Below, one piece after another: positions 36,451 to 63,200 of a DNA stretch of 64,000 nt. Both the position numbers and the translations under genes were made by a program. Below the pieces are notes generated by a model, which made no database searches, was not told where the DNA came from, and was given only the letters and a program-made list of their open reading frames with translations. The first letter of the stretch is position 1; every line of letters begins with the position of its first letter. Origin of the DNA: Undaria pinnatifida (Eukaryota; Sar; Phaeophyceae; Laminariales; Alariaceae); NCBI GenBank assembly GCA_012845835.1, contig JABAKD010000007.1, positions 6,860,222 through 6,924,221 on the forward strand. The letters are read 5' to 3'.

Positions 36451-37439
36451 GGTATGACCGTAATATTACTACTGTTGTTACGGCTTCAGCAGGTACGGGA
36501 TTCGCGTCACACTGCTGTATGCCTTGGTACGAGTAGCTAGGGGTACTCCGTGGTGAGTGTTCTGCTCGCTGTGATGACATATGATCGGAGCACCGGCACG
36601 AGAGAGGCAGGAAGCGGAAATGTTTGTATTTTATTTGCGGACCCGTGGGCCCGATCCGCGGGGTGCCTGCACGGTATCAATGGCTCTCAGCTGTAAGTTT
36701 GAAAATGGCGGATCCGCGGGCCAGATCCGCGGGCTTCACCCGCGGGTCAGCCCAAAACAACTCGCGGGTCATTATGGCTTGACCCGCGAAGTGACCCGCA
36801 TGTCGCGGGTCATGACCCGACCCGACCCGCGAGATTTTGAAAACCTCTTGACCCGACCCGACCCGACCCGCGAGATTTTGAAACCTCTTGACCCGACCGG
36901 ACCCGACCCGCGAGATTGTGAAGACTCTTGACCCGACGCGACCCGACCCGCGAGATTTTGAGAACCTCTTGACCCGACCCGACCCGACCCGTGAGATTTT
37001 AAAACGTAATGACCCGACCCGACCCGACCCGCGAGATTTTTAAGCCCCCTTGACCCGACGCGCGGGTCGGATCATGATCCGTGAAAAGCCCTGGTATTTT
37101 TTCATTTCCGACTGAAAATCCAACTTCAGAAACAAAACAGGCTCAGACGCTATAAATAGTATCTTGTCCCAGGATGTGCTACTATTTTTTTTTTTTGCAC
37201 CAAAAATAAGGCACCACAATAAGTAATCTGTCAATATTTTTTGCCTAGAGAGAAGAATGGGCACATACAAAAAGAGAAATCCCGGAAAAGGATAGGGGTG
37301 CTGTGTGTGGTAGTAATACTTTACCTTTGTAACATTTTTATTTTCCATCCCATGTATTATCCTCGTACTACTCTCGCGCTCCCTCCCAGTAGCAACTCAG
37401 ATCCGGGGTCACATTGCGGGCACTCCTTCCCCCTCCCCA

Positions 37440-39270: not shown

Positions 39271-39607
39271 TGTATGGTAAGGCACCCGCGACGCAGTTTC
39301 ATACTATCCCCATTGTTTTCTGTGGACGTGGCCCCCGGAAAGAAAACCAATTCATTCGAAGCTGCCATCCGTATGCAAGATAGTACGCTTAAGGTGCAGA
39401 GGTCCGCCTCACGAGTGGTTCTTAGTAAAATGCAGCTCACCCTTCATTCGAGTCGCCCAACACCTCACGGCGCTTCGCGTTTGGTGACGCGGTGTCTGGG
39501 TGGTCGGTGAAAACCGGACGTGCCCCGCCCCGGCATTATATGGATGCGAGGGTCTATGGCCATACGACTACGCCTATGCATGAAATGACTGCCCCCCCCC
39601 CCCCCCC
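39271..39607 (+). mobile_element. SINE-like repeat, 5'-truncated
   Basis: From ggtaaggcacccgcga to ctatgcatgaaatgact followed by about 15 C. Contains the family words ccgcctcac-agtgg and aacacctcacggcgcttcgc. Confidence 0.85.
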
Positions 39608-39609
39608 AA

Positions 39610-40370
39610 CCTTCCCCGCATTATGGCGTGTTTTTCCCTTTTTTCCTTGATTTTCAGCGCCGCTCCCCTCCTCCCCGCATCCCGACGTGTTTTCTCATGT
39701 GTTCATTTGTTTTTTCAGCTGCGGCATCCATTGGTGGAAGTGCGTTCTCGCGCCATCTCTAACATCAGCGGGTGAGATCGCAGTGCTGCTGAGGTTATTG
39801 TTTATTTTTAGTGGACCCAGAGGTTTCGTTTGTACGAAAGGGCATCAGTCGTGGTCGTTGCCATTGCTGTAGTTTTTGTTGTTGGTGTTGTGGTTGTTGT
39901 TGGTGGTTACAGCGTTGGTGTTTGTGTCGCTAGTACTGTTGTTGCTGCTCTTGCGCTTGCTGTTGGTGTTGATGGTATTTTCTGGTGTTGATGTCGACTG
40001 TGGATGCTAGTGTTTTTTTATTAGTCTTTATAGTTGTTTTGGTGTACACACGCCCGATGAAATGTACGTCATAGCTCCCCCTCTTCACTCGTTGGCGATA
40101 CACGCGAGGGACTGTTTTTCTCCCTTTTGGGATCCAAATACGTCGACCTAAAAATCGACAACATTTTATCTATGCCCCCTCCCCCCCGCGGCGGCCGGTG
40201 TACCTGGAACACCATCAACACTGGCCCCCACCCACGTGGGGTCTACTCAGCAGGACATGTAGCATAACGCCCCCCCCCCCCCCCCCCCCCCCCTCCAGGG
40301 GGAGGGTGTACACGAACGATTTTAACGTTGACCCCCGCCCCTGCGTCCCACCGCCTTCATCCTCTGCCGG
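39610..40370. other. Intron or intergenic, no gene
   Basis: Runs of C at 40269-40292; (gttggtg)n-like sequence at 39870-39990. Nothing coding recognised. Confidence 0.5.
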
Positions 40371-40374
40371 ACAG

Positions 40375-40879
40375 AAAAATCTCGCTTGGGCTCGTGAAGC
40401 CAATCGATCTAGCGGCGGAACCCTCATTTTTCTCGGATGTGGTCGCACTTCTCAATGGCGTGACGACCTCGGAGCGTTCTTCGGATCATGTTTCTTCAGA
40501 TCCTTCATCTTCCAATCGTTCTAAGGATCCCTCGCACCATCGATCCTCGGATCCTTCGTGGGGTCCTTGTTCGAACCATGCTGGGGATCGTTATTCCAAC
40601 CATCGGGCTATGGACCCTTCTTCGAGCCGTTCTACGGAGCTTCCTTGGAATCGTTCTTCGCATCCTTCTTCGGACCGCACCGCATACCCTGAAGACCGTT
40701 CTCTGTCTGAATGGCCCACAGGAGAACGTTTTTCTGGAGGACGTTCTTCGGAGGTTTCTTTGGAACATCCTTCTAAGCTGGACGGGACGGCGAGTGCGGC
40801 AGCAGCGGCGCCGGTGATGAGTACGGAGCAGAGCGTTGCGTATGGACTGCTCTTGTCGCTCTGCGCCCAGCTGGCTAAG
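40375..40879 (+). CDS. Rotatin-like exon with Ser/Asp-rich repeat
   Basis: Acceptor CTCTGCCGGACAG; reads KISLGLVKPIDLAAEPSFFS, DVVALLNGV, then about 100 residues rich in SSDPS/RSSxPS words, then SVAYGLLLSLCAQLAK with donor AAG|GTAGTA. The helical ends fit an armadillo-type protein. The repeat is encoded by a degenerate array of ttcggatcctt-like units. Confidence 0.6.
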
Positions 40880-41472
40880 GTAGTATTCACAGGTCGGACA
40901 TATCACGATCTACAGTGTAGGTCGTACATGTATACGTATCTTTTTCTTTTTTTCCTCTGTTTTCGGGCATACCTTTTCGTACGCGCACTTTTTACCCGAA
41001 ACGCCAAATGGGTGGACACAATTCGGACCTTGCGGTCACTGTCATCGAGGTTTGGGCGCTATCCGTGCCGTCCATCGCGCGTGATAAGCCCTTTTAAGTT
41101 TTTACCCGCGGGCATAGATCCTGTATTTGCCGTTTCTAATTGCGGTACAATAGCAGATCTCCCCTGGCACGCAGCTGGCTAAGGTGGAAGTTTGACATAT
41201 CGAGCACATCGTGATAAACTGGATCCAATTTTTTCTGTCATGTGCCGTGATGTAGTGTCGTACATGATATGTATCATACAGACCCCGCTCGGAGGGCACG
41301 TGCGCAAGAGCCGTGTCGCACAGGTCCCACTCGGCAAACATAATACAAGTACAGATGGCACAAATCGTTGATTATGAGGGACCGTCTGTGGCATTCAAAA
41401 AACCTCCATCGTGACGTGAGAAACGGATCTGTGCGATGAGTAGAAGGTATTCGTATGGTTCTGTGTTGTTGT

Positions 41473-41512
<40 letters not shown>

Positions 41513-44500
41513 GGTGGTGGTGGTTATTTTAGTGGGTTTGATGTTGGTGTTGGTGTTGGTGTTGGTGTTGGTGTTGACGTAGATGTTGGTGTTGATGTGT
41601 TGGTAGCGCTGATGTTGGCGTTGATGTGTTGGTGGTATTGGTGTGGGTGTTGTTGGTAATGTTGTTGGTGCTATAATTAGTGCCGGTGTTGGTGTTGGTG
41701 TGTGTTGATGTTATTGCTGATGTTGGTGTTGGTGTTGGCCTTGGTTTTACGTGTATACCCATTGGCGTGGATGTTGGTGTTTGTTTGGCGTTGGTGTTGT
41801 CGTCGGTATTGATAGCGGCGTTGATGTTGGAAGTGTTGGTGTTAGTGTTGGTGTTGCCGCCGCCGCCGCTGCTGCCGCTGCTGTTGCTGCTGCTGCCGCT
41901 GTATGCAATGGCCATGCGGGTCGCTACTGGCGTTGTTTCCGCCGCTACTGGTGGTGTTGCGTTCGCGGTCGCTGTTGGTGTTTTTTTCTGCTGCGGTTGC
42001 GGTTGATGATTCTGCAATTATTAGCTGGTGCGGTCAGTGCTGGTGCCTTTAGTACTGCTGGTACTTATTTCCTATGGAACCATTCATGCAGAGGTCCGTA
42101 ACCGTGTGGTGTGTTTGATTTACGCGTGTCTGTGGTCCACCGACCAACACTACCACCCCCGCCCCACCGCCCGAACCATACCGCCCACTTACGATATAAA
42201 TCGCCTGCAAAAAAACGCTCTTCATCCTGACCCACCCTCACCCTCCGCGTGGCTGATATTTGCCGACGAAAGCATAAAACTGCGATGGACGTGCTGTTCT
42301 TTGTTCATAGGAGCCCCGGTGCCGCGCTCGGTTAGCGGGGGAGGGAGCTGCTGGTCCCCTGTCGAGAATCGCCAGCGCATCGGGAAATCCGAGAGAGATA
42401 TCCCGCCTCGCTGCAGAGGTGAGGACACGTTTTTCGGTGTACTAGAGCATGTTTTAGTCGTTACTGTGGTTGATGTTATGATTGCCGTTGATGTCATTTC
42501 TTTTCATCTGTTTACCATATACATACCCATGGTACCTACCGATTTTCAGCGAAATGTTCGCGTCACACTCCCCCTGCAGTCAATACACAACGTTATCCCC
42601 ACACAATGGTGGGTGGGTGGGGGGGGGGTACTCTGTTGTGCATGGCCGTAGTCGTATGCCCATAGACCCTCGCATCCTTGCTGTGCCGGGGCGGAGCACG
42701 TCGAGTTTTCACCAACCAGGCGGACATTGCTTGAACCAAGCGCGAAGCGCCGTGACGTGTTCGGCGAGTCGCATGAAGAGTGAACTCCATCTTTTCAAGA
42801 ACCGCTCGCGAAACGGACTTCGGCGCCTTGTGCCTGCTTTCTTGTTTATGGATGACAGTGCAAATGAGTTACTTGTTTTCTTGTGTGGCCACTCCAGAGA
42901 CAGAAATGGGTATTACTGTGTAACTGCCTCGTGGGTGCCTTACCATATTCGCACTACGTGGTGCGATCATTGCCCTTGTGCGGAGCTAGGGTGCTCCACC
43001 CCGTACAATATGATCTACTCAACCATCTTGTGACCGCAAAAAAAAAAAAAAAACTGTACCCTAGTTGTTTAACTCAAGCAGTGATTGGCATGTTTTACAT
43101 CGTTGCCAACCAACGCCAACCCCAATATGCATATAATGTTTTACAGCGTCGGTGCCAACCAAACGCCAATTATTATATACCAGGTATATATTGAGTTTCA
43201 GCGCGGGGGGGGGGGTACTCAGTGTGTGCATTGCCGTAGTCGTATAACCATAGACCCTCGCATCCCTACTATGCTGGGACGGAACACGTCGGGTTTCACC
43301 AACCAGGCAGGCATTGCTTGCACCAAGCGCAAACCGCCGTGAGGTGTTCGGCGAGTCGCATGAAGGGTGAACTGCATCCTTCCAAGAACCGCCCGTAAGA
43401 CGAACTTCGGCACCTTGTGCCTACTTTCTTGCTTGTGGATGATAGCGCCAATGAGTTGTATTCTGTTTTCTGGTGTGGCCACTCCAGAGACAGCAATGGG
43501 TATTGCTATATAACTACCTCGTGGGTGCCTCACCATATTCACACTACGTGATGCGATCATTCCCACCCCGCACACTATGATCTTAATATGATCTTACTCA
43601 ACAACCATCCTGGTGACCACCAAAAAAAATAAAATATGAACGGTACCCTGGTTGTCTAGCTCACACAGTAGTTGGCATGTTTTACAGCGTCGTTGCCAAC
43701 CAACGCCAACCCCAATTTGCATATAATGTTTTACAGCATCGGTGCCAACCGCGGCTAACTATTATATATGTATATTTGTAAGGGGGCGGGGATGTAAAAT
43801 AATCCCCTCATCTACCCCCCTCCCCCCCCGCGAGGAACGCCCACTGCCAACCAAATGTCCGACGCAGAATTTGAGAAGGGAATCAACACGTGGGCAGAGG
43901 CGAGCGTAGGTGCGTCAGAAAGGGAAAACCATGGTTCATATAGGTTACAGAGAGAGTTCACAAGATAAGAAGTAAAGAAATGTGTGGCTAAGCTTGAGAA
44001 TAGAAAGGCAGCAAGAGCAGATCAACTAGTGAATGAATTGATGAAGTGCGGGGGAGAAGGTATGCTTGCCACAATGGTTATGTTGTATAAGTGGATATGG
44101 CACAACGAGTACGCGCTTAAGAGGTGGAGAGAAGGAGTAGTATTAAACTGAGGTCCGATCTCATGCAGTAAAATCTGAGTGGTAAAATTTGGTCTGAAGG
44201 TAGATTTTCAACCGGCCAAAAAAAACACCATACAGGTGTTCCGTGGGCCGTCTTGTCGGTGTTTTTTTTGCTGTGTTTCATACGGGAATCAGCCATTTCA
44301 GAATAGTACTCTTGATGGGCCAGATTTTGAAGTCCACGAGTGGTGTGACCCACACCAGGATGGGCATTCATCCCCTTCACCACCAGCTTGTCGCAGAAAG
44401 GCTAACGCCGTGCTTTTTCTTCCTAGATGTACAGAAGGCTTGTGGCACGGTATGGAGGGATTGGATGTGGGGGAAAATATGGGAAATTGGCATCAGAGGA

Positions 44501-47500
44501 AGAATGTGGAGAATTATGAAAATTTGGCGGAATGTGCGTTGAGTGCTGTGATGCTGGACAGGGAAATATCCAAGTATGTTGATAGTTTGCAAGAAGTTGC
44601 ACAGGGATGTACACTGTCATCCAATCTATTCAAGGTATATGATAATGACATGATAGTGGCAGTCGAAGCGTCAAACCAAGGAGTCACAATGGGGGAAGAT
44701 ACGGTGTCGGGGTTGGTGTTTGCGGGTTAATGTTTGCGGGTGATTCGTTGGGATATGAGAAACACCCGAAGGATTGCAGGAACAGATGGAGAAGGCACTA
44801 GAGTACACTAGGAAATGGAGAGTGACAGCGAAGGTAAAAAAGTGCGCAGTAGTTGTATGTAACGAAGATAAGGTGAATCCGGTAACTTTCAACATTGGGG
44901 ACATGACCTGCCGATCGTAGACCAGTGTACGTACCTTAGGGTAGATATATCCAAGGACTGCTCTTGGGGCACACACAGAGCGAAAAGGAGAGGGTAAAGC
45001 ACAGGTGGGCAAGATGGATGCGATCCTAACAGAATCGCACGTTGACACTAGGATTAAAACACGTATTCTGATTGATGTGATTTCACCAAAGCTAGGGTAT
45101 ACAGGAGAAGTATGGGAATGGAACACGAAGTTCGTCAGGCAACTGGAAAGAGTGCAGATGACAGCAGCTAAGATACTAGGATGCTCAAGTACGACGTGTA
45201 GTACAGTATTAAGAGCAGAACCAGGAATGCACCCACTTGAAACAAATAGAGCCGCGAGAAAGTTGAAATGGCCATATAAAGTAAGGAATATAGGTTGCCA
45301 GCCATAGCTGATAGGACTGCATGGGAGAAAACAACAAAAGGGCGAGCTGGGGTAAGGTGGGATAACGCTGTCGAGAAAATACGGAAGGATTTAAGAGACC
45401 AAGAAGAGGAACTGTCCATAGAGAAGTCTGGCGGGTACAAGACAGAAGTAAAATAATGGGTAGAAAAAGGGACAGGCCAGCGCTGAGAAACAAGGTGAAA
45501 GAGGAGAAACACTTGGAGATATACGGGGGTTTGAGGGAAGATATTGAAATGAAAACGTATTTGCACGGCCCAATGGACTACTCCAAAAGGCTGAAACTGC
45601 GATTTCGTGTAGGAGACCTGGACCTACCAGAAAGAAGAAAGAGATAAACCAGTAGTCGGGAGGAGGAGGACATACGTGCCCGTGGTGCACAGCAATAGAG
45701 AGCAGGGCTCGCATAGTGGGATCATGTAAAATATTCAAGGAGGAACGGGATGTGTTAGAGGAGATGAGAAAAATTGACGAATGAAGAGTTTGGTAGACCA
45801 GAGAGTAGCGAGAAAACGCTCGCTATCCTAGGAGACACATGGTGGCCACATACGGCGAACCAGGAAGGTGATAGGGTTTTATGTATTATATGGAAAAAGA
45901 GTATTGAGCGCTCAAACGTTGGAGGTGTCTATTAGGAGTGGGAAAGATGCTCCGTGTCGAAAGGGATGCGTGGTCAATTTTCAAATGGCCAAGGCAAGCA
46001 ACAAATGAGTACGCCCCCCGCCCCCCTCCCCCCCCCATCTTCCGCTGGTGCACGATCCCTTTCAGATTCTGGTGCTTGTCGAAACCCTCCCCGGTACCCC
46101 GGGCGGTACCAATGCCTCCGAACCGGCTATCGGGGAAGGGTTGGAGATCTACCGTCCCCCCCCGCCGCCTCCCAGCGGAGACGAGGGGACGGTGGGGGAC
46201 AAGGGTGGCGGATGGAAAGGGTCAGATGCGGAGGTGGAGGGGGGAAGCGGGGACGGAGAGGACATGGCTCCCATGAAAGAGGCGTGTCGGCTTTATGGGG
46301 ACGGGTCGGAGCGGAGGTGAGGGTGGGTTCAAGGTTTAAGGTGCTTTTTCTTTGTTTTCTAGTCTTGATGACAGGGAGGACGTGTTGCCAGTATGGATAT
46401 GGTATGCTACTGGTGGTGGTGTAGCTGTTGTTATTGTTCTGTATTTCTGCGTGTTGGACGTGCTGTGTATTGCGCACTGTGATTTTATTGTTTTCATATT
46501 GTTTTTTTGTCGTACCTGTACGTTTTTTTGGTGGCAGCAAGCAGGTGGACACTATTGGTTTTACTCGGGAAGACGGCATAGGTGATCAATCTTGCGCCAC
46601 TTAAGCAACTTCCCCCTCGCTCGGTACACGACTAAAAACAGGGGTTAATCGCATTCTGGGTGAGGGGCGGAGGCAGACGGGGGAGGGAACGTGTAAAGGT
46701 GGCGAACATTAAGGAGGCCTATTGGCTGTATGAAGGCGGCTAGGGAACGTGTAAAGATGGCGAACATTAAGGAGGCCTATTGGCTGTATGGAGGCGGCTC
46801 GGAGTCGACCTTGGTGTGGGCTCGATCTGTTCTCTGGTTTTGATGAGAGGGAAACAATGCTGTGCGCTTTTGGTCAGCTATTTGGGAGGGTTTGATGATC
46901 TACCGCCCCCTCCCTCTGCGGCCTCCTATCGGGACGGGTGATTACAGGGAAGGGTGGGGGCGGGGGGGAGTGGGGCCAGAGAGAGGAGGGGAACATGCAA
47001 GGGAAGTATTACCCATGGAGGAAGATTTTATATTGAATGGCTTCGGGTCGGAGCCGAGATGTGTGTGCGTGTGTTTTCTGGGGGCTGAGGAGCTTGGGGC
47101 CCTGGTGCGTAATTCTGGTCGGCTGTGAATCGGCCATGGGGAGGGTCAGGGGATTAACCCCATTTGTTTTGTTGATCGCCAACATCCTCGTGCCGAACAG
47201 GTGGCCTCGATGGACCAAAGAGCTCGTGGACGGTCCCCTCCTAGCCGCCGACGGGGCATCGCCGGCAACGCTGGTGATTTCCCTTTGCGCCGGGTGGCGG
47301 TTTCCCCCCGTTCGGCTGGTTCGGTGAGTGAGATTCCGGATTCTGAGTATTTCTTTTTCAGTGTTTTGATGGATCGATTCGGGTGAGAAAACTCGGTTCG
47401 GGTGAGGATTGGTTGGGGTGAGAAGTCGGTTCGGCTGAGGATCGGTGAGGATTCGGTTGGGTTGAGGATTCGTTTGAGAATCCGGTATAGCGTTCGGTAC

Positions 47501-50500
47501 GGCTGCGCTAGGTGACGGTTTCCCCCCTTTCGATTAGTTCAGTGAGAGAAATTCCTGCTTCCGACAGACTACCTGTATTTTTTTTGCTTTTTTTTTCGGT
47601 TGAGGACTCGGTTGGGGGATCGGTTGTGGTTCGGTTGAGAGTTCGATTTAGCTGATGAAGCAGTTGGAGATTCGGTTCGGCTTAATTACAGTATTCGATT
47701 CGGCTGAGGGTGCCTTTCGGATGAGTACTCGAGGGTTCGTTTAGGGACGGGGTTAATGATGGTCCATCGCTGGTGACGCGTTTTTATTTTTTGCACCAGA
47801 ATGCGGTTCCCCCGCATTCAATTAGTTCGGACCCAGCTGAGGTTTTTTGCTACAGTTTTCAAGCCTAATTTCACCCATTGTTCCCGCCAATCTGTAACCG
47901 CGACGAACAGATCGATAAAGCGTTCGCGTTTTTTTGTTGTGTATGGGCTGTAACGCAACTTCTCCCGGTTTAACTGCCGCTTGTTTTACCTCCGCGAACA
48001 GGTTACAAAAAGCTGCCCGTTTGAATGTATTGGGCCCAAGCGCAACTGCTGATGAAACCCTCTGCATTGTAAACTGCCATGAAAATGTCGGAAATAGTCT
48101 ACGCTGCCCTGTTTGTTATCGCCACGCACAGGCTTAAGCGTAGCTTCTGCCTACCCACGTAACTGCCGTTTTTGGAAACCGCTGTCGCGAGCAGATCGGA
48201 AGAGTCCGCGCTGTTCGACTTCGAGGTGCGCTTTCGCGCGGCAAGCCTGGGGGAAGCAGGCCTCCTAGGCTGTATAGAACGCCTGAGGGACGAAATTTTG
48301 GAAGATTTCCCCCCGGAAGTTCTGCTGCAGAGACCCGGTGCTGTCGGCCACCTGTCGGCGTTGCTGAGGTGGGTGGGTAGGGTGAGGTAGAATACGTGTT
48401 ACATGATTTTGATATTGTTTTGGTGCTAACATTGTTTTGTCCATTTTGTGTTCGGTTGCTTGTATGTGTCAAGGCCGTGGAAGGTTTCCCCCCAGAAGTT
48501 CTACTGCAGAGACCCGGTGCCGTTGACCACCTGGTAGCGTTGCTGAGGTGGGTAGGAGTATAAATGTGCCGTGATTTCGATTGCGCATACAATGTCTGCG
48601 TGAAAACCCGACGTGCTCTGTGACAGCGCTGCAAAGACACAAGGGTCTACGGTCCTACGGACAACGGCAATTCATGATGTGATGATTGCCCTCCCCCACC
48701 CCCCTTCGTCTAACACCCTACCACCTCCCACCCCACCCTCCCCTCCCCCCCAAAACGCATACCGGTACCCCCCCCCCCCGTCCTCGTCGTACCCAGAACG
48801 CCTTCCGCTAGCGAGAAAGTCCTCGAAGAATCTCTCTCGGCTGCCAAACGCCTCTTGGAACGCCTTGTCAGTTCTGCGCGTCTCCACCTCGACGACGCCT
48901 TCCTTCCTCCCTTGAAACCCGACATTTTGGCGGGACGTGGGGGTGGGGCTGGGGCTGGGGCTGGGGGTGGCGGGGTGGGCGGAGGTGAGGACGGTGGAAG
49001 CTGGGGCGCCCCTCGCCACCTCTCGCTGACCCGGACGCCATTCTCCTCCCTCCCATCATCATCAGCAGCAGGAGCAGCTACTGGGAGAGGAGGGGTTGGG
49101 GGAACGGGAAGAGGGACTGGGGTTGGCGTTGGGCCTGGAGAGGCTGCCGTGGCAACCCTTTTGTCCTTCCGCTACCCCCAGTCCTCGGGAAGGGGGTCAA
49201 TAAACGCTTCCGCTGCTGTTGATAATGATTCCTCAGCTCGAGGGTGGGGTGGGGTCGGGAGGGCTGCAGGGGGCGGGCGGGGGGGGGAGGGCGGAGGAAG
49301 GGGATTTGCAGGAGGTAACGAGGGGGTTGGACGGGGAAAGGGTGGGAGGGGAGGAGGGAGATATCCAGCTGTTGGTTGTCATGCCTCGACGATTGGAGGA
49401 GATGGGAGGCTGGTGGCGGAGGCCGTTGCTCGAGATCGGGCGCTGGCGGAAGAAGGGGTTTCCACACAAAGAAGAAGGGACGCGCTTTTAGGTTCGGGGG
49501 ACGGGGGAGAGGTCCCTGTAGGACAAACCAACTCGGCGTGCTTGTGGCTAGCAGGGGGGAGGTTGGGGACCGGAGAGCGGAGTCGGGGAAGGGAGCGAGA
49601 GAGGGAGGTAGAGGCGTGGCTCGCGGGGGGAGAAGGGGGGGGCGGCCTCAGCGTTTGCGGTGCGCTGTTTGCACTGTTTTTGTCTGCGTGTCCTCTTCTT
49701 GGGTATGGACGGGGTTGTGGTGGCGACGTTTCTCACGACACTAAGGAGGGGGCGGCGGGGGGCTCGGGGCCGTGGAGACGTCCTTCCAGGGTGTCGGTCT
49801 TGGCCGGAGAGCTGCTGCAGGTGCTCATATTTTTGTGGGCATACAGTTGTTGTTGTTGTTGTTGTTGTTCTCTCTGTCGCGTCATCAAACGCCTCAGCAT
49901 TTGCCTGATTTCCATCTCTCCCCCCCCCCCCCCATCGCGCTCCTAGGAGATTGATGATGGCCGCAGATGGCGAAACAGGACGGGGATAGGATAAGCAAAC
50001 ATTTTCAATAAAATATATGGAAGAAGCGTAATGAGCGCCCAAATGTTGGAGGTGTCTCTATAAGGAGTAGGAACGGTGCTCCGTCTCGAAAGGGATGCGT
50101 GGTCAATGGTCAAGTTACTAAGGCAAGAAACAAATGAGTACGTCCCCCCCTCCCACTTGCCCCCCTCCCCCTCCTAACCTCCACTCTCAGGCTATCATAC
50201 CGTTCCTACTAGAGCCGCGGAACGATCCCATCCCCGGGCGGGGACGGAAAAGAAATATCCCCGCGGGGGAACAGAACGAATCCATCCCCGGGGTCGGCAT
50301 TGGCATTGCCTCCCCCTTGGATGCCCTCCGCCTCCAGGAGCTCCTGTGCAGCATGGGCCGGGTCTTGAAGGATACATCGTGTGTTTGCAAGGACCCTGGC
50401 GCAGCGGCGGCAGCGGCGGCGGTAACAGCGGAAGCGGTGGCGGCGGGGAGGATGGGGTTGGGAGTGTACATTTCTGGTGATGGTGGTGATGTTGGTGGTG

Positions 50501-53500
50501 TTGGTGACGGTGGTGGGGATGGTGGGGATAACAGCGGAGGCGTGCTGGTGGGGGCGGGGAGCGAAGATGCGGCGCCGAGCCCTGTGGTGGAGATAGCGTT
50601 GCAGCTACTTTTGGTGATTCTTCCTTCGGACATTATTTCCGGTGAGGCTTTTTCGAGGTTTTCGTCTTGTCTTTGTGGTTTTGTTCTCGAGTTTAGAGGC
50701 CTGCTCTGGACGTGTGTACTAGGAGCGCCGGAAGGCTCCCCCCTACCCCCGATCCCTGCCCACATCATGACATGCCCCCACAATTAAACCTTCCCCCTTT
50801 CCTCCCTCATGTGAGAAGGCTCCCCAATTCTAACCCCCGCCTCACGTCGGTTGACAGTGACGCTGTAACACACGTCTCACACTACGTGAGCTAGAACCCC
50901 AGGTTGCCGTCTTTTTTTCTCGTTTTTATGTTTTAACAGTAACCAAGATGGTAGTCGAGTTAGATATTTTTGTTCGGAGTGGAGAACCTTAACTCCGCGC
51001 AAGGGAGATGGTATAACGCAGTGTGCCTATGGTAAGGCACCCACGAGGCAGTGTCATAGTACCCCCATTGCTGTCTCTGGAAGAGGCCACACCAGAAAGC
51101 GTATACCAGGCAATTAATTCGAAGCCACCATCCGACATGCAAGGATGTATGCACAAGGTGCGGAAGTCCGCCTCACAAGTGGCTCTTGGTGGGGATAGCG
51201 TCACCCTTGATGCGACTCGCCGAGCACCTCACGGCGCTTCGCTCTTGGTGCACGCGATGCCTGCCTGGTCGACGTGCTCCGTCTCGGCATTGTAGGGATG
51301 CGTCTTAAGACTACGGTCATGCATGAAATGAGTACACCCCCCCCCCCCCGCCCATGCATGCCCTCGAGCCCCACAACCCCCCTCCCTCTCCTTGCTCTCT
51401 TCGTAACCCCCCCCCCAGCCCCTTCCATCCTTTCAAAGTTTTAACCTCCTTCCCTTTGCTCCTCCCCCTCCTCCTCCCGCTTCTCCTCGCCCCCCCCCGC
51501 CCCCCCCCCGCCCCCCCCCCGCCTTCCTCCTCCTCTCCGTTCTCCGCTTCCCCATCCTCCCGCCCCCCCCCTACCTCCGTCCTCCTCTTCTTGCCCCCCC
51601 CCTATTCCCTCTCCTTGTCCTTCTCCCCCTCCTCCTCCTCCTCCTCCTGTAGGGGAGGATAACCCAAAAGGCAGTTTCGAAAGAAGACCGCTGGCGATAA
51701 CCTTGCCTTCTGAGGTAATCGCTCTGTTGAGGTGGTTGGTGTTGGACCCTGGCGTGACCGCCCGCCAGCCCTGGCTCAGGCCGCGGCTGATGCCATACGT
51801 GGGCAGGGCGGATCCCTCCGGAGCTGGACTGTTTGAGGTGCGCGCGGTGTGACCGACGCACAAACGGTGCCACTATGCTGCTTGTTGCTGTTGCGCTTCA
51901 AGGAAGCTTTCTTGTTTTCGAATGCAGTGCGGGGTGTGTTTGTCTTTTACGTCAGCAGTCCTTGTAGGCCCTATTGTCACAGTTCAGATCCCTCAACATG
52001 CCTGATAAAGTATCCAATCTATCGATATGTATGGATGTATTGCATGGCTGGTGCCGTATGTGGAGAGAGGATCCCGACGGAGTGCAACTGCTTCAGGTGT
52101 GCGCTCGTTTAGTTTTTTTTTTTCCATTCTGGTGACAGGGTTGATAGCCGCCCCACACGTTTGGAGACAGTACCTCTTACAAATTGTGTGGTTCCTGGTG
52201 TTTTGTTTTTCCATATGGCGCAGCAGTAATAATCATACCGTCAGTGTTGTGCTTTGGTTTGCCTTGCATAAATTCACGAATGCGCTAATTCCTCCCCTCC
52301 CTGCCTTTTTCTTGGCGCGCCTCAGTCGGTGCAGGGTATAATCGCGGACGCCGCATCGGTCCTCTTCGCTGAGGAAGGCGTAGAGGGTGTGTTGGGGGAG
52401 GAGAAAGGGGACGAGGGTTCAGCGGGGGACAATGCGTGGGGGTGGGTTGAGGGACAGCTTGCAAAGGTGGGGGCTACTGTTTTTTGCTATGATACACGAC
52501 ACGAAAGTTGTAGTGGTGGTGGTAGTAGTGGTTGTGGAGATAGATGTGATGCTGGGAGTGGTGATGGTGGTGGTGGTACTTGTGGCGGTGCTTGGTGGTG
52601 GGCGGTGTGATGGTGACCACACTGTTGATGACATCAATGATGCTAGCGGCGAGGGTGACGATTTTGAGGATGACGATCGTGATAATGATGATGATGATGA
52701 TGAAAATGGTGATGCTGATAATGATGGTGATGGTGGCGACGGTCGTGATGATGATGGTGATGGTGATGATACAAAATGATGATGATGATGGCGAAGACGA
52801 CGATGATGACGATGATGATTATGATGATGATGGTGATGATGATGACAGTTGTCCTTATGATAAAGATGGCTATGACGATACATCTTGGGATGATGACGAT
52901 ACTACCATCGATGACGATGGCCACTACTGTAGCGTTAACGATGACTATGGCCATGATGGCGCTTATGGCAGGTCGAGCCCGCGTTATCGCTCCAGCACGC
53001 CGCAGAGGACGCTAGGCGGTGGGGGCACGTTCAGCGTTGTCGATAGTAGAAGTATATTCGAACGTTAACGTGAGGTGGTGCCGCCGAGCATGATGATGAT
53101 GACGATGATGATAGTATTGTTGACATAAAATACGATGATGCTGACGGCGACGATGATGACGGTGGCCACTATGGCGATGACGGCAGGTCGAGCGCGCGTT
53201 ACCGCTCCTACGTGCCGTAGACGACGCTATGGTGGTGGGAGCAGCATTAGCATTGTGGGCCGCCGCGGCGCGGGCATTATTCTCTTGGAAGAGCGACGGG
53301 GGAAGCGGCGGTGGTGGTGGACCACCGAGTTTCAAGCCTCAACAGACGTCATCGCAACGTGAGAGAGGGCAGGCTGACTAGTACGCAAAATAAGAACACC
53401 ATGACCACAACCACAACCACTACCACGAGCGCGACCGGGATCACAACCACAACCACAACTGCAACTACCACGAACACACCACGAACACGAACGCGAACAC

Positions 53501-56500
53501 GAACGCGACCACGACCGCGACCACGACCATGACCGCGACCACGACCACCACGATGACCACGACCACGACAACAGCCACAACCACAACCGCAACCACAACC
53601 ACAACCGCAACCACAACAGCAACCACAATAACAGCAATACCATCACCAGACCGCCGCGTTAAAATGTACCCTTTTACCGCCGAAATCGACATAATCGGGA
53701 AGGGTATCTGCGACATCAGGAACAACCCCCCCCTGCCACCAATATCGACACCGTCGCCAACGGCAACAAAACCTACCACCCGCACCAACTTCAAAATCCC
53801 AGCGCCGAAACGAGGACACACCTTGCAGCATGAACAATACTATCGTATACGTCCATTTCAGAAACCTCAACAGGATTGGGAACCGAGTTATCCTCCGAAC
53901 CAAGTACCGGATCCTCGACCCATGCCTCACCCGACCTGACCGGCCGAATCGTGCACGGAATCAACAGAACCTCGTACGGAATCCTCAACCGAACCATCAA
54001 TTGAATCACCTACCGAATCCCCAAACGAATCCTCAACCGAACCCTTGAATCGATGCATTCGCAGCTCATGGGGTAGCGTCATCCTCTTCTGCTGAGCGGA
54101 CCGGAGCTGGGGTGGTGGTTAGGCTGATACGGGGAGCGTTCGGAGAAAAGGTAGAGTGACGAGATGCCAGACGTTTTTTAGTGTGTTTTTGTCTTTTCTT
54201 TTCGGGTTATCTGCTCGAAAGGATTCGCGGATGATAACCCTTTTGGAACTACGGTTATGTTTTTGAGGACACTACTTGGAATGAGATCAGTTTTGCAGCT
54301 CTAAGGGTAAACTAGTGAAGGTGCTATTCGTTTAAATGCTAGGTAGTTCTTCAGGACCTGAGGCGGTGACGAAGCTGGTACAGGGAGCGTTTGGAGAAAG
54401 GGTACATGGGCGAGGCGGTGTTTTTTTTTTCGTGCGTGTCTGTGTGTTGGTGTGTTTTTGTCGGGTTCTCAGCTATCACGTGTGCGTTTTGTTGTGATAT
54501 TCTCTGCGTGTCTTGTACACTCGCAATCATTTTGTGTGAGTCTTCTTCTAATTCGTGTGGTTGCTTTTAAACCTGTTCGAGTAGAACATGGCCTGGTTTG
54601 CGATAATGCACGAAACAAAAGGCTCTATTTTAATCAAACAATTGCGAGCTTTGTGGGGTCAAAATACCCTCTCTCTGCCCCCTCATTTCCTTGGCATGCC
54701 TTCTAAAGGTTACCCCCATCCTTTTGCCCTTTTTTTAATTTCTCCGTTTCATCCGAACCTCTCTGGTTTGATTGATCTAGGCCCGCTCACGTACCTATGT
54801 TCCTACCCACAGATCCACAGATCTGTGAGATGTAAAAGCCAAGCATTTTTTTTCTGCCCGGCGTGTGAAGCGTTCAAAGTATGACCGCCGCCCTCCGGCA
54901 ACCCCCCTATCCGCCTGCCCCCTGGCATACCTGTGTACCACTACCCACTACCCCGCCCATTGTCCTTGTCGTTTTCCTCCTTTTGGTCTCGACCTCTCTG
55001 TTTTGATGTATCGATTGAGCTAAGGCCCGCTCACAGGCGTTGCTGATGCTGGAAGGCCTTGCAGGAACCAGAGCGGTTGCGGGCGGGAGGGGATGCCTCG
55101 CCGTTCCACCCGGGTATGATTCGTGCGCCCGTCTTTTCTTTTTGCGTCCAATGTTTTAGGAACGAGTTACACGGTTTGACAATGCATGTTGGTCGCCACT
55201 ACTCGTACGGCACAGCAGTACTAGATTGTATCGGCAATGATCCCGCGTATGATTGGTCCCACCGTGTGGCAGTGTATCCCCCCTCCCCCACGCGTGGGCC
55301 GGCATCGGTTGGCAATGGTGCTTTAGGACACACTCCGTAGGGCAGACAACCAGGGTACCGTTTTTGTGTTTCGTAGGTATCCGTAGATTGCGGCCGAGTG
55401 ACATCAATGCGTGTGGTGTGGACATTTTCAACTCCGCGCAACGGGGGTGGTCGTATCGCGTAGTGGGTATGGTAAGGCACCCACGTGGTACTTGTATTAT
55501 ATACCCATTGCGGTCTCTGGACGTGGGCCTATTTGAACGAAGATGAAGCAATTCGACGTTGTCATCCAAATGCAAGAAAATAGGCACGATGCGACGAAGC
55601 TCGCCTCACAAGCGGCCGTTCGTAGAAGGATGCAGTTTCGCCATCATGCGACTCGCCGAACACCTCACGGCGCCTCACGCTTGGTGCAAGCAGTGTCTGC
55701 CTGGTCAGTGACAGTCCATTATCCTATAAAACGTCGCGCTCCTATAGATATGCGAGGGTCTATGGTCATACGACTGCAGGCATGCATGACAATGGTTGTT
55801 GCCTGGACGTGGTCCGTCCCGGCATTGTAGGGATGCGAGGGTATATGGTTCCAAGTACGGCTATGCATGAAATGAGTACACCCCCCAAACCCCCCCTGAT
55901 TACCCCTCCCCCTTGTCCCCTGGACACCTCCGCTGACTCTCCCTAACTCCGCACTATGTACCCTACTCTACCCCTGTGTTTCCACAAACCCCTTTTTTTG
56001 CATTTGAAACAGGTTGGCCGTGGCTATGACAAGGCGGAGTTTTGCGGATCCTCGTCTCCCTCCTTCCAAGGAGATTCGCGAGGTGGTCGCCATCGCTGTT
56101 GTCCTGGGCGGTAACGGTAACGGTAGCAGTAGCGGTAGCGGTATCGGTAACGGTATCGGTAACGGAAACGGTAGCAGGGGCGGTGACGGTAGTGATAACC
56201 GTAGCGGCAACGGTGACAGGGACGGCAACAGGGACGGTTACGGTGACGACAACCGTAGCGAAAAGGATGCCGGTAACTGTTACAGGATCGGTATCGGTAT
56301 CGATAGCGGTATCGAAAATATAACCCGTTACTGCTACTGTAACGGAAGCGGTGATGGGAATGGGGATCGGAATGGTAACGGTAACGGGAATTGTGAGGAT
56401 CGCGGGAACGGTATTTTGGCGGCGCTGGTCCACGAGGTAACAGTTGCATCGGCCGCAAGGGACGACGACGACGTTGACGACGACCGCGAAAAAACGTCAA

Positions 56501-57214
56501 CGACGCCCAACGAGGGTGACGCCGCGCGCCGTATCATCGGAAGCAGCTGCGGTGCCCTGCACGTGTTGCTTCGCTCAGGCTACGGTGGTGGTGGTGGCCG
56601 TGGCGGCGGCAGCAGAATGCTAAAAACACGCTCGCTCACCACCTCTTCCTCCTCGTCGATTGGTCCACCGTCTGCTCCTTCCCCCCTCGCTGTGGCCCTA
56701 GCCCTCGCTCCCACACTCGAAGCGTTCTTGTTGTGCTGCCGCCACGACGGCAGTGGCGGCGGCGGCGGTTTAGTTGACGACGATATTAACGGCGGCAACA
56801 ACGACGCACACGGCGACCCCCCTCGAGAGGAGGAGCGGTATCACGGTAACGGTTCACCGGGAGAAGTTCTCCAGACGATTTCGAGGCTTCTTGACTTCCT
56901 CTACAGTGTCGAAGAGGAAGAGGAGGACGGCGAAGGGGGTGGACGGGGTGGACGCGGGAGAGGGGAGCGTGGGCCGTCGGCCTGTGTGTCGCGGATGCTG
57001 GGGCAGGTTCGAGGCCTGTGCAGTGGGGAGAGGGAGGCGCGGTCTTCGTCGTCACGCCGGCTGGCGAGCTACCTGAAGGAGATGGAAGGGGGGCAGCCCC
57101 GGGTGAGCTGCTTCTCTGCGATATATTTTGGTTCGCTTTGTTGTCTTCCGTTTGGAACGGTTTTGGGGTAATTGCTGTGAGGTGTAGGGGTGCGCGACGG
57201 TCTGCCCTGGATTG

Positions 57215-57246
<32 letters not shown>

Positions 57247-60200
57247 GGTGGTGGCGGCGGCGGCGGCGGTGGCGGTGGTGTTGGTGTTGGTGTTGGTGGT
57301 AGTGTTGATGTAATAAAGGTAGTAGTAATGATAGCAGTGGAGGTAGTTGTAAGGGTTTAGTAGCAGTGCTATCAGCCGTAGTAAATTTGTAGTTGTAGCA
57401 GTAGACTAGCAGGTAGTTAATCGTAGTACTAATCTAGTGGTATACCAGGTATTGTGGTCGCAGCAGTTGGAGACCGTTTGTTGATGGATGTACGCATCGT
57501 GATGGGTCTATGCGTATGGTGTATACTTATGGCACAGCGGATATATGTGGCTACCGTGCGCCATGCTTTAGATTTCATGCCGCATTCACGGCTGCTGAAT
57601 CGTCCCGATTCTCTCTCTACATCCTCGCCCCGCCGCCGCCTGACCCTCCCCACCCCTCCTTACCGACACTGCCGCCGCTGTTGGCCGGCAATACCAGGGC
57701 GCATTCTCCCCCTTTCTCTTTTCAGATGACCCGCTACTACTGGATGGTGGCGAGGTGGGATCAAACAACGAGCAGCGTCGCCAATTCCACCCGGACAGGG
57801 TAAGGAGGCCTTCTACGGTAGGGGGGTGCACCTATTTTTTTACTATTAATAGGCTCCTCACATGTGTCTCGGTGTTACGCTAGCGTGTTTGCAACTTCCA
57901 ACCTCAATTTTGGTTGGAAAACACACTTTTTATTGAATGTATTAATACCGACGAATGCCATCGTCCAAGACCAACCGACCCAAGAAAAAGTAGGCTTGAG
58001 AATTAAAAAAAATGTAGGAGAGCGTATTTCTTTATTCATTTGTTAACCCATTTCTTCGCCGGTTTTTCGTGGGTTGGATTGGCCTTGGATTGTGATGTTT
58101 GACGGGTTCAATACTATATGTTACTGGTATGTGTTTTCCTGCCCAACTCTTACCCGGCCAAAGGTTGGTACATGGCAAAACACCCTACTGTGTATGTATG
58201 TACTGGGTGTATGCTATGATACGGGGTGCATTTAAATTTGATTTTCCTCATCTCACTTGATGGCCTCAATTACACCTTCCCCGGCCAATGGGCTTTTTTT
58301 ACCGTAAGGGCTTTTCCCTCACCTCCTTGCTTGAGGAGCTCTATCCATACACCCCCTTACCCACCAACTTACTCTTTGCTTGAAAAGTTGTGCTCCTAAC
58401 ACAACGAAAAATTCCACGGCCTAGACATATTGTGAACCATACTGGCAACCGCAAATGGTGCTCCGATGACGTCGGGTAGTCCTTCCCAATCGATTAGTAT
58501 CATGCCGTTACAGTGCGGGCCGCCCAGTAAGGCGGTGGTGTGCCGGATCAATATGGCCGCCTTAATTGGGGAAAGCCGTCTTATCCATTCCTGGTTTTGT
58601 GTGCAGTTCCCAAGTTGCGCGAAGCTGTCTTGACTGCCTTGTATCGGAATACCGCCGTACTCGGACCGCCTTATTGGGAGAACCCTACTGTTATAGTCAG
58701 GTAGTGCTCGGCCCCACAAGGCGCACCACTATCCTGTCATATCCATAGCACGCATCACGACTCATTAAACTCGCTCCTGTCGCCCCAGCAGTAGCATTGA
58801 CATCATCACCACCGCTACCCTAGCCAATAGCAGCAGCAGCAGCGACCGCCGGGATCATATTTCAACCCGGAGCACGCAGGGAGACCTGGCCGACGTGGCG
58901 GGGTCGCCCGCTCCGTTGCCCCTAACTTTTTTTTTTTTTTTTTCATCCTCCGGCGGCTGGGGGAAAGTTTGACATTAGGCTCCACCACACTTCCACGTAC
59001 TTTCATACATGTCGTGAGTCAATAAATGGTATTGGAGTTGGAGTGCATAGAGACCGAACCCGATCCGAGAAGAACCATAATTGTTTTGCCAGATGTAGGA
59101 TTTTTGGGCCCGTATCCAATCGGAATGACACACTAGTCAACACTGCTCTATACCGTAGTTTTTCTTATCGGACACCGGGTTTTTAGTCTCAGATCGGATG
59201 GGAATCGATTATCGTTCCGATATGAAACCCTAACCAACACCGTCACCATGACTACCCGCAGCAACAGCAGCATCGTCAGCGACCGTCGGAGCCATCTTTC
59301 AGCGCGGAGCATGTCCGTAACCTCGTCGACGTGGCGGGGTCTCCCAGTTTGGAGGCGGCATTACGGAGATCGGCCACACAACAGCTAAGGGTGGTTTTGC
59401 TGTCGCCGGGCGTCGCCGCAGCGGTTTGTGAGGAGGATGCGCGCTCGGCGGAAGGACAGGTGAGGGCCGCGGGGACTTAGGGATGGGCGGGCGTACTCAT
59501 TTGTTGCTTGCCCTCATCATCTGACCAATGATAACGCATGCCATTCGAGGCGGAGGCACCGTGCCTACTCCTGACAGAGACACATCCAACGTTTGGGCGC
59601 TCAATACGCTTCTTCCATATATTACATAGAAACTGTTTGCTTATCCTATCCCCGTCCTGTTGCGCCGTCTGCGGCCACCATCTCTATCCTAGGATATATA
59701 TCGTTTTCTCGCTACTCTCTAGTCTACGAAACGCTTCCATGTCACATCTGTCTAATTTCCCCATCTCCTCCAACTCACTCCGTTCCTCCTTGTATATTTC
59801 ACATTCTCCTACTATGTGAATCCTACTCTCTATTGTTGTCCCACACGGGCACATATTTGTAGCCACGTCCTCCTCCTCCCGACTACTGGTATATCTCTTC
59901 TTTCCGGTAGGTCCAGGTCCCGTACACAAATTCGCAGTTTCAGCTTTTTCGCGTAATCAATTGGGCCGTGCAGATACGTTTTCTTTCCCATATCTTCCCT
60001 CAAACCCCCGTATATCTCTAAGTGCTTCTCCCCTTCCACCTTATTTCTTAGCGCTAGCATTTCACCTTCTTTTTTTTCTTTTACTTATGTTTTGTACCCG
60101 CCAAACTTCTCTATAGACAGTACCTCTTCTTGGTCTCCCCCTAAATCCTTCCATATTCTTTCGACTACGTTATTCCATCTTTTTGCAGTTCGCCCTTTTG

Positions 60201-63200
60201 TTGTTTTCTGCCATGCAGCCCTATCAACTATGGCAGGCAACCTCTTTTCTGGCATATTCTTTACTTTGTATTGCCATTTCAACTTCTTCGCGTCCCTATT
60301 TGTTTTAAGCGGGTACATTCACAGTTCTGTTCTTAATACTGTACTAATCGTCGTACTTGAGCATCCTAATATACTTTTAGCTGCTGCCATCTGTACTGTT
60401 TCCAGTTGTTTCACGCAGTTCGCGCTCCCTTCCCATACTTCTCCTGCATACTCTAACTCTGGTACAATCACATTCATCATAATACATTCTTTAATGGGAA
60501 ATTGACACAGTCGGGTACACCCGGGTGGTTTATGAACAAAATCGGGTACCTTTTTTTTCACGGCGGGGCGCGCTTACGCACGTCTCCAAAACGCCTCCAA
60601 ATCACCTTCTGGCGCCTGAACCCACTGCGCCTAGTGTACGCGCAGCACCCAAACCGTTTTTTCGGCGTTCGAACCCTCAAAACAGCGCCAATGACGGCCT
60701 CCTTAAAGTGCTCTCGACCGACAACTCGGTCTTGTTGAGGAACACACCGCCCTGTGCTTCGATTTCATAAACTACCCGATTTTGTTCATACTGCACCCGT
60801 TTTAGTTCACTTGCAAGACCCGCGGAGACACGGAAACGGACATCTCCCCGCAACCCAGCTGCGGAAGATCCCGCACACAACTGGCAACTTGCCGACTGTG
60901 ATGCAACCGCAGCAGCACTGCTAACTTCCCGGCCCACAAAGATCCGCCGTCACTGATGCACAACCTGCCGCCCCGATGCAACAGCACTGTTTGTGAAGAA
61001 TGGTGGCATGGCGGTGAGCGCGGACACCCAACCAAGATCCGGTGCTAGGACGAAAAGTCAAGACCATGTAGAGACGCTCCACCTGTCGCTCCAAACATCA
61101 GCAAACGACGCACGCCCTCGGCTCCACACGTAAACACATACTGCGAACACATACTGCGAACACATGCTGTACTGCGAACACATACTGCGAACACATACTG
61201 TAATGCGAATATATACTGTGATGCGAACATATACTGTACTGCTAACACATACTGCGAACACATACTGCGAACACATACACACAACAGCAGTACTACGAAG
61301 TACAAGTATTTTTATTGGGTCATACGAAGTACGTCGAAGTACTCCACTGCAATATATACTCCGGGGAAGGAAGCATACGTAGTTTTTTGGGAAAATACGA
61401 AGTTCTCCGTCCGGCACCTCTCCCGCCGAAAACAAGCACCCTCAGGCTTGTCTGACGCGTGTTATTGTGAGGACCAAATCACCAATAATGGAGGATCGAC
61501 ACAGACAGGAGCACGCGCGGCGCGAAAAAATAGCTCCCCAACAGCAGTCCTTGCATTACCGGTACTCCTACCCGTACAAGTTCTTTCTGACCGATACTAC
61601 TACTGAATTGCACTTCGTATGCGAAACAGAGGACGTACGCAAAAGAGAGGAAACTACGGAGTAGCAGTCAGTGCGGTCAGTGCGGTTGCACCGGGGGAGG
61701 CAAGTTGTGGATCGGGGCGGCAAGTTGTGCACCCGTGACGGCGGATCTTTGTGGGCCGGGAAGTTAGCAGTGCTGCTGCGGTTGCATCACAGTCGGCAGG
61801 TTGCCAGTTGTGTGCGGGATCTTCTGCAGCTGAGTTGCGGGGAGATGTCCGTTTCCGTGTTTCCGCGGGTCTTGCAAGTGAACAAAAACGGGTGCAGAAT
61901 GAACAAAATCGGGTAGTTTATGAAATCGAAGCACAGGGCGGGGTATACCCGGTGTGTTCCTAAACAAAATCGGGTTGTCCGTCGAGAGCACTTTTTGGGG
62001 ACCGTCATTGGCGCTGTTTTGAGGGTTCGAACGCCGAAAAGACGGTGTGGGGTGCTGCGCGTACACTAGGCGCGGTGGGTTTAGGCGCCAGAAGGCGATT
62101 TGGAGGCGTTTTGCAGACGTGCGTAAGCGCGCCCCGCCGCGAAAAAAAAGGTACCCGATTTCGTTCATCAACCACCTGCGTGTACCCGATTTTATCAATT
62201 TCCCTATTTTAATCCTAGTGTCAAGGTGTGGGTCTGTTAGGATCGCATCCATCTCGCTTACTTGCGATTTACCCTTTCCTATTACTTTCGAGTTGTGTGC
62301 GTCCCAAAAGCAGTCCTTTGAGATCTCTACGCCAAGGTACGTATCCTGATGTACGATCGGTAGTTCGTCTTCTCCCCACTTCCATTTGAAATTCACCGGA
62401 TTCAACTTATCTTCGCTACATACAACCACTGCACATTTTTTTATATTCGCTGTCACTCTCCATTTCCTGGTGTACTCCAGTTTTTTCTCTATCTGTTTCT
62501 GCAATCCTTCGGGTGCTTCTGATATCCCCACGAAATCATCCGCAAACATCAACCCGACGCCGTATCTTCCACCATCGTGACTCCTTGCTTTGCTGCATCA
62601 ACTGCTACTATCATGTCATTTATATATTCCTTGAATAGACTGGGTGATAGTGTACATTCCTGTGCAACTCCTTGTAAAATATCAACATATTTGGATACCT
62701 CCCCGTCCAACATCACGGCACTTCCCGTACATTCCTTCATCTTTTACATCAGTCCCCACCTTTTGCCTCAGATCCCAATTCCCCACATCTTTTTCCATAA
62801 CCCATTCCTCCATACTGTGTCATAGACCTTCTGTACATCTAGGAAGAAACAGTACGTCGTCAGTCCGGCATACTTCCTACCTTGAATTATCTTGCCTAAT
62901 GTGGTCTACGCAACTACGGTTTGGCCTAAATTCTGCTTGCTTTTCGCTTGTTTTTTCGTCCTTCGCCAACATTGTTCTCAATCTATCGTTAAAAAAATTA
63001 CAGACTGTTTTGCCTACGGTGCTCAATAGCGTCATCGCTCGGTAATTCCCCGAGTCCGCCTGATCTCCTTTTTTTGGATAGGTTTACTGCTACTCCTTCT
63101 CTCCACCTCTTTGTCGCGTACTCGTTTTTCCATATCCAATTATACAACATTACCATCATGGTAAGCATACCTTCTCCCCCATACTTCATAAATTCATTCG

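Follow-up and report, generated by a model that had tools for sequence, protein, structure and literature searches.

LINE and SINE-like copies in the window

The window analyzed here is a 64,000-nt stretch of the genome of the brown alga Undaria pinnatifida (contig JABAKD010000007.1; C56:6860222–6924221 in our numbering). It contains copies of two dispersed repeats, a long interspersed element (LINE) and a family resembling a short interspersed element (SINE), which share a 3′ end and are commonly bordered by runs of C. Copies were also collected genome-wide (L numbers), and genome-wide counts cover the 511-Mb genome in 68 contigs.

LINE A (43830–46013, plus strand), delineated by its coding pieces and by homology to LINE C and other copies, is 5′-truncated and has a broken reading frame. 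Its terminus retains the final 22 codons, the TGA stop and GTAC-G, as in the consensus C-terminus and stop, and the 3′ end that it has in common with the SINE-like family, placed by consensus alignment and reading frame at 45947–46012 (plus strand), is coding in the LINE. A C-tract, CCCCCCTCCCCCCCC (43815–43829, plus strand), adjoins its 5′ junction on the target side, and another, C6 G C6 T C9 (46014–46036, plus strand), lies 3′ of it. LINE B (49934–50142, plus strand) is a short, 5′-truncated 3′ fragment with the terminus ATGAGTAC-G, directly preceded by C14 (49920–49933) and followed by a C-rich tract (50143–50168), both on the plus strand. The C-runs that precede these two copies had gone unnoticed earlier. 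LINE C (59493–63508, minus strand; 5′ limit approximate) contains reverse transcriptase (RT) pieces with an FADD motif. Just upstream on the sense strand is the C-rich tract CCCCCCTCCCCCCC (63509–63522); on the 3′ side the C-tract is weak, with CCCC as the longest run in the first 30 nt. A foldback element of about 1.7 kb (60495–62207), with inverted arms of about 490 bp that are about 91% alike, splits LINE C, and a 7-bp overlap of the flanking LINE alignments suggests a short duplication. Two further 3′ ends are more decayed: a divergent LINE fragment at approximately 17530–17600 (plus strand) is an exception in having no C-run directly after it, and a very divergent LINE-like end, ..GGCAAGAAACATATTAGTAC, recognized by eye at 17625–17677 (plus strand), leads into a C-rich stretch that includes a single C5.

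The SINE-like repeat has a full length of about 570 bp. Copies at 50845–51336 and 55301–55880 (plus strand) both have the terminus GCATGAAATGAGTACA; the former has CCCCC just 5′ and C13 after it (51337–51349), the latter CCCCCCTCCCCC just 5′ and CCCCCC after it. The copy at 39273–39591 (plus strand) is 5′-truncated and followed by C16 (39592–39607), and its 5′ end has no adjoining C-run. On the minus strand, the near full-length copy S43 (43216–43781) is preceded on the sense strand by CCCCGCCCCC and followed by C11 (43205–43215). S42 (42629–43204, minus strand) starts right after that run, head-to-tail with S43, and is itself followed by C10 (42619–42628). A 5′-truncated copy at 11331–11467 (minus strand) has C10 after it and CCCCTCCCCCCC 6 nt 5′ of its junction. 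Of two divergent fragments, the one at 13463–13596 (minus strand) is an exception, with no C-run directly adjoining either side, and the 3′ fragment at 48590–48688 (plus strand) is followed by CCCTCCCCCACCCCCC.

The first-pass annotation had placed the ends of both repeats correctly, with small errors in the letters quoted. The SINE-like ends lie at about 39591, 51335 and 55879 and, inverted, at 11331, 42629 and 43216; the ending GCATGAAATGAGTAC-A given for them is exact only at 51321–51336 and 55865–55880, and the other four are ATGACTGC, GTGAGTACA, CAGAGTAC and CTGAGTAC. The LINE ends at 46005–46012, 50134–50141 and 59493–59500 (minus strand) read ..AAATGAGTACG, and the LINE letters at 50134 are GAAACAAATGAGTAC.

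Identity of the two families and their common 3′ end

Judged by its sequence, the LINE is a broken retrotransposon of the non-LTR (long terminal repeat) type, with a LINE-type RT and 5′-truncated copies that differ in their truncation points. RVT_1 was found in two of the six pieces scanned, both from LINE C and both below the Pfam cut-off (E = 5e-4 and 1e-5), and neither of the two coding pieces of LINE A that were scanned matched Pfam. The domain is strong in the relatives P0121 (E = 2e-32) and P0123 (E = 1e-34). Among named relatives, those of Ectocarpus come closest, with P0123 matching at 43% over 100% of the query, and a piece of the LINE (6% of the query) is present in the U. pinnatifida protein P0219 (89% identical). 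An apurinic/apyrimidinic (AP)-type endonuclease lies N-terminal to the RT in three of the seven relatives scanned (P0134, P0139 and P0148); in P0139, from Ectocarpus, Exo_endo_phos precedes RVT_1. No endonuclease was recognized by eye in the frames of the DNA past the window beside LINE C (L029). When P0001 was compared with solved structures, an R2 protein was the sole match (E = 0.003). The LINE consensus has an extremely short 3′ untranslated region (UTR) of simple repeats, a trait of RTE and RTE-X elements, and the LINE likely belongs to one of these clades.

The SINE-like family is short and non-coding and has a 3′ end in common with a partner LINE, as expected of a SINE. A classical SINE origin (RNA polymerase III/tRNA, 5S or 7SL) was sought by Rfam and tRNA scans, with promoter boxes outside the search, and none was found: Rfam gave no match at E ≤ 1 in L043, L054 and L057 and none at the gathering score in the window, and there was no tRNA in the window. 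The window was also without a match in a phage collection.

Consensus sequences built by majority from 41 LINE ends and 19 SINE-like ends align across 74 columns, from GTGCTCCGTC to GAGTAC, with a score of 56; none of 5000 shuffled controls exceeded 30. Dropping the final 15 nt gave a score of 44, compared to 28 in shuffles. The common 3′ end of about 75 nt noted in the first-pass annotation is thus real, at about 73 nt, and the stretch persists when the two consensus sequences are aligned, which supports a SINE-like family that carries the 3′ end of the LINE. The LINE consensus end translates as ERPNVGGVSIRSRNGAPSRKGCVVNGQMTKASNK-stop, and 33 of the last 34 residues are identical to the relative P0121. 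The terminal TGA is kept in 36 of 41 LINE copies and the last 22 codons are open in 34 of 41. The consensus frame terminates in ..SNK-TGA-GTAC, followed by the C-run, so that the stop codon lies 4 nt from the end of the element and the shared tail is coding sequence in the LINE. The SINE-like consensus holds the shared stretch with gaps, and the LINE frame is broken there. Folded singly, the two consensus ends each show a GUCYC/GGGAU stem and a UGGUC/GACUA hairpin. Folding them jointly gives only a weak consensus structure, and covariation is thin, with one pair in the joint alignment changed on both sides between the families (U-A to G-C).

C-runs and duplications at the junctions

The 15-mer GCAACAAATGAGTAC occurs 1068 + 1120 times genome-wide, compared to 1 + 0 for a reversed control. 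Tails were sampled at 40 of 100 listed places (2188 in total), chosen irrespective of the following sequence. A run of five or more C (C5+) lies within 20 nt after 36 of the 40 sampled LINE ends; A5+, G5+ and T5+ follow none of them, which rules out a poly(A) tail. The base after GTAC is G in 21, C in 14 and A in 4 of the 40, with the C-run next. Within the window, a tally made by eye found C5+ within 30 nt of 10 of 13 recognizable 3′ ends; the three misses are divergent copies (LINE C at 59493, the LINE fragment at 17530 and the SINE-like fragment at 13463). The first-pass annotation had given nearly every copy an oligo(C) tail; not all have one, and copies lacking a C-run, which that annotation had named as counting against it, do occur as a minority (4 of 40). 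At L098 (115 bp, C2:3338011–3338125), the LINE end is followed by a GTGTTA tandem array, not by C.

The 5′ side was assessed on 29 non-redundant, 5′-truncated LINE copies with varied truncation points. Twelve of 41 oriented copies were left out, namely L011, L024 and L040 (duplicates of L003), L022 (duplicate of L013), L007, L008, L012, L020, L034 and L036 (junction unclean in the retrieved DNA) and, from the window, LINE A and LINE C. For the SINE-like family, 20 of 47 listed places were retrieved, one retrieved stretch holding several places, and 18 of the 20 were used, leaving out L056 and the array L061. C5+ is present in the 30 nt preceding the LINE junction in 18 of 29 copies and G5+ in none, compared to 5.0% and 5.1% of random 30-mers (binomial p about 1e-16 for C5+). 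In the 53-nt SINE-like 5′ flanks, C5+ occurs in 15 of 18 and G5+ in 0 of 18, against a background of 9.7%, and the SINE-like start typically abuts the C-run directly. Because truncated copies have it too, the 5′ C-run is not part of the element. Upstream of the LINE copies, the frequency of C5+ in successive 30-nt steps is 62%, 24%, 17%, 10% and 7%, and 5.5% over 120–1500 nt. A 20-mer near the SINE-like start, AATAGTTGGCCTCGGTTGGC, has 434 exact copies genome-wide (208 plus, 226 minus), and CCCCC lies within 30 nt upstream of 155 of the 226 minus-strand starts. These minus-strand sites each appear once in the listed part; the plus-strand figure, 669, counts sites repeatedly and was not used. 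The preference of insertion sites for C-runs, which the first-pass annotation had put forward for checking, is therefore found in both families, and targets of G are ruled out, with G5+ at neither end of 47 copies.

A directly precedes 54% of 24 target C-runs, compared to 31% of 324 C-runs elsewhere. Within the 4 nt upstream of the run, TA occurs in 9 of 24 versus 49 of 324 (p = 0.009) and TTT in 9 of 24 versus 40 of 324 (p = 0.003), in a comparison in which the background runs sit in C-rich DNA and which was one of several such tests. This excess is a weak sign of the insertion signature described for RTE elements (PMC13295347).

In L018, L010, L013, L028, L033 and L019, the stretch between the 5′ run and the junction recurs after the 3′ run, and the same pattern was seen by eye in the SINE-like copies L052, L050 and L009. 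Several of these target-site duplications include the C-run itself: C-run+TACCGCCCTACC in L018, C13TCC in L010, C6TGCC in L013, CCCTCCGCCCTG in L028 and TC9GTT in the SINE-like L052. Within the duplication the C-run occupies the left edge, which is where the first nick falls in target-primed reverse transcription. A test anchored at the junction, which replaced one by gapped alignment, gave a permutation p of 0.0002 (n = 29). In L051, some 25–35 nt preceding the SINE-like copy recur roughly 110 nt after it, past a long C-rich stretch; this could be a duplication of great length or else the result of an older event.

The two families are often found nose-to-tail. Seven of 19 SINE-like loci directly follow the 3′ end of a same-strand LINE, four of 29 LINE copies, by eye, directly follow a SINE-like 3′ end, and L061 consists of six consecutive SINE-like units with C-runs between them. 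At L003, L011, L024 and L040 (C18:727–866 kb), one SINE-LINE composite occurs at four places within 140 kb, probably through local duplication, and L013 and L022, both on C30, form another duplicate pair of this kind. The window as a whole contains 55 C/G runs of 8 nt or more (2.0 expected) and 31 of 10 nt or more (0.1 expected); tails of the LINE and SINE-like elements make up 6 of the 55. It also holds tandem arrays of GACCC-rich units of about 40 bp with the core GCGAGATTTYGAAACCTC (35477–35743 and 36814–37062) and of units of about 42 bp with the core CTCCAGGTACYGGCAGGTACT (29383–29716).

Probable insertion into C-tracts: proposed mechanism, alternatives and known systems

We consider it likely that the LINE and the SINE-like family insert by target-primed reverse transcription into existing C-tracts, in one orientation. 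The SINE-like family would be a non-autonomous passenger of an RTE-like LINE, recruited through the shared last ~73 nt and presumably dependent on the LINE protein. An endonuclease would nick the G-strand at the left end of a C-tract or close to it, the freed oligo(G) 3′ end would pair with the C's that end the RNA (..GAGTAC-R-CCC), and cDNA synthesis would begin there. Since the duplication contains the C-run, the copy would come to have a run at either end, and the one at the 3′ end could grow through slippage or through C's carried by the RNA. Each insertion would leave a C-run beside the new copy as a reusable target, resulting in head-to-tail arrays, and insertion into C-runs would thus explain both the apparent C tails and the nose-to-tail placement of the two families; part of the clustering is expected from C-run targeting alone. 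A further step, in which the two families would create targets for themselves and use them again, with insertions that duplicate and lengthen C-tracts, shape the C-run landscape and build the same-strand arrays, is something we propose only tentatively.

Several observations weigh against insertion into C-tracts. C5+ is absent from the 5′ flank of 11 of 29 LINE and 3 of 18 SINE-like copies, and in L065 a LINE is joined to a SINE-like copy with no C-run between. Only 6 of 29 junctions were singly above the 95% control in the anchored duplication test, and the gapped local-alignment test was weaker still, with 4 of 29; the small number of singly significant copies is partly due to C-rich duplications carrying little information. 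The LINE query extended 18 nt into the tail and the SINE query had five C's, which could have favored C-tailed copies, although the 5′ flanks and the 40-place sample are unaffected by this. The genome-wide figure for SINE-like starts counts C-runs alone, and no LINE copy examined in the genome reaches an endonuclease domain. Downstream of the LINE 3′ end, the frequency of C5+ in 30-nt steps is 100%, 34%, 21%, 24%, 14% and 14%, so that C-runs stay above background at 120–180 nt and, at 7–15%, out to 300 nt; this slow fading indicates some regional C-richness.

Might regional composition, then, account for the runs, the elements gathering in C-rich intergenic DNA in which runs are incidental or expanded after insertion? 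The C-richness that reaches some way downstream of copies and the very high number of long C/G-runs in the window would fit. The strand asymmetry does not, nor do the duplications that contain the C-run and the return of the upstream frequency to about 5% past 120 nt, and we regard this explanation as very improbable. A stronger rival, though still an unlikely one, holds that the oligo(C) is a true tail, copied from RNA that ends in encoded or added C at sites indifferent to C, like the microsatellite 3′ UTR of RTE elements. In its favor, and against a target that explains everything, copies that lack a 5′ C5+ run each have one at the 3′ end, a long one in L031, L032, L039 and L041 (C39 in L032, C20 in L031), indicating that part of the tail comes from RNA or slippage. 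In L052, eight C's stand ahead of a duplication that begins with T, and the median longest run in the LINE is 13 at the 3′ end compared to 7 at the 5′ end. Against a true tail, sense-only C-runs precede the majority of junctions in both families, and CCCCC lies upstream of most of the minus-strand SINE-like starts counted genome-wide. Where both runs are present, the SINE-like 3′ run is not the longer one as a rule (8 longer and 7 shorter of 15); the LINE 3′ run is longer in 12 of 18. The sense-only 5′ runs and the C-runs inside duplications argue that the oligo(C) is mainly the insertion target, and the 3′-only runs, L052 and the longer LINE 3′ runs that C was also added in some copies, by RNA or slippage. 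The first-pass annotation was thus right that the elements are followed by oligo(C), but what it took for a tail is mainly target. As judged from occupied sites, the target appears to predate the insertion and lies within the duplications, as for a target-specific LINE, in most but not all copies.

The SINE-like repeat could also be something other than a SINE, namely the 5′-truncated or internally deleted form of another LINE family that has this 3′ end too. It has no Rfam or tRNA match, and RTE fragments have previously been mistaken for SINEs (PMC2887409). However, its near full-length copies have one common 5′ region right after the C-run, and the 20-mer counted above, with its 434 exact copies, lies in that region; we regard this reading as unlikely.

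Comparable pairs are known. In Ectocarpus, the non-autonomous family RTEX-N1_Ec32 (~600 bp) is described as the most abundant, with a 3′ end conserved with the autonomous RTE-X LINEs RTEX-1_Ec32 and RTEX-2_Ec32, and as a possible SINE whose 5′ origin is unknown (PMC12477816). By description, this resembles the short non-autonomous family with a LINE 3′ end seen here; the C-tails and C-run targets present in U. pinnatifida are unmentioned in the accessible text of that account. RTE LINEs of Lepidoptera have one open reading frame (endonuclease and RT), an extremely short simple-repeat 3′ UTR and many 5′-truncated copies (PMC2887409). Our LINE resembles them in its short simple-repeat 3′ UTR and its short 5′-truncated copies, but they are reported to lack sequence specificity at insertion, and their repeats are often di- or trinucleotides (PMC2887409), whereas our LINE has a repeat of C alone and C-tracts make up most of its targets. 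Bov-B likewise combines an RTE-clade LINE and a SINE with a common 3′ end and 3′ simple repeats (PMC13295347). Its Tn-TA insertion signature has a weak parallel in the TA/TTT excess upstream of our C-runs, but its 3′ repeats are described as rarely flanked by a repeat-like target (PMC13295347), while here the target usually resembles the repeat. Togen, at (TG)n, and some HERO families insert into simple repeats; they belong to clades with a restriction-like endonuclease (PMC4640811), in contrast to the AP-like one carried by three of our seven relatives. The role of simple repeats at the 3′ ends of LINEs and SINEs is described as unsettled (PMC13295347). Pairs with a shared 3′ end, repeat 3′ UTRs and microsatellite targets are thus already known, and literature searches confined to open-licence PubMed Central turned up no report of a LINE or SINE with a C-tail or a C-run target. 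Within that scope, the novelty lies in a homopolymer of C that serves a LINE and its passenger as target and, seemingly, as tail.

Mammalian L1 nicks a homopolymer strand and thereby frees an end that base-pairs with the homopolymer at the end of its RNA. L1 uses A/T, whereas the system described here would use C/G, and A5+ follows none of the 40 sampled ends. Since the repeat usually matches the target, on one strand, in a LINE and a SINE-like family and in hundreds of copies, the pairing model is directly testable. The tail of the SINE-like family matches coding sequence of its partner LINE. If insertion into C-tracts is correct, it would account for the LINE/SINE arrays and for some of the C-runs in the U. 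pinnatifida genome, and the two families would be to C:G what L1 is to A:T.

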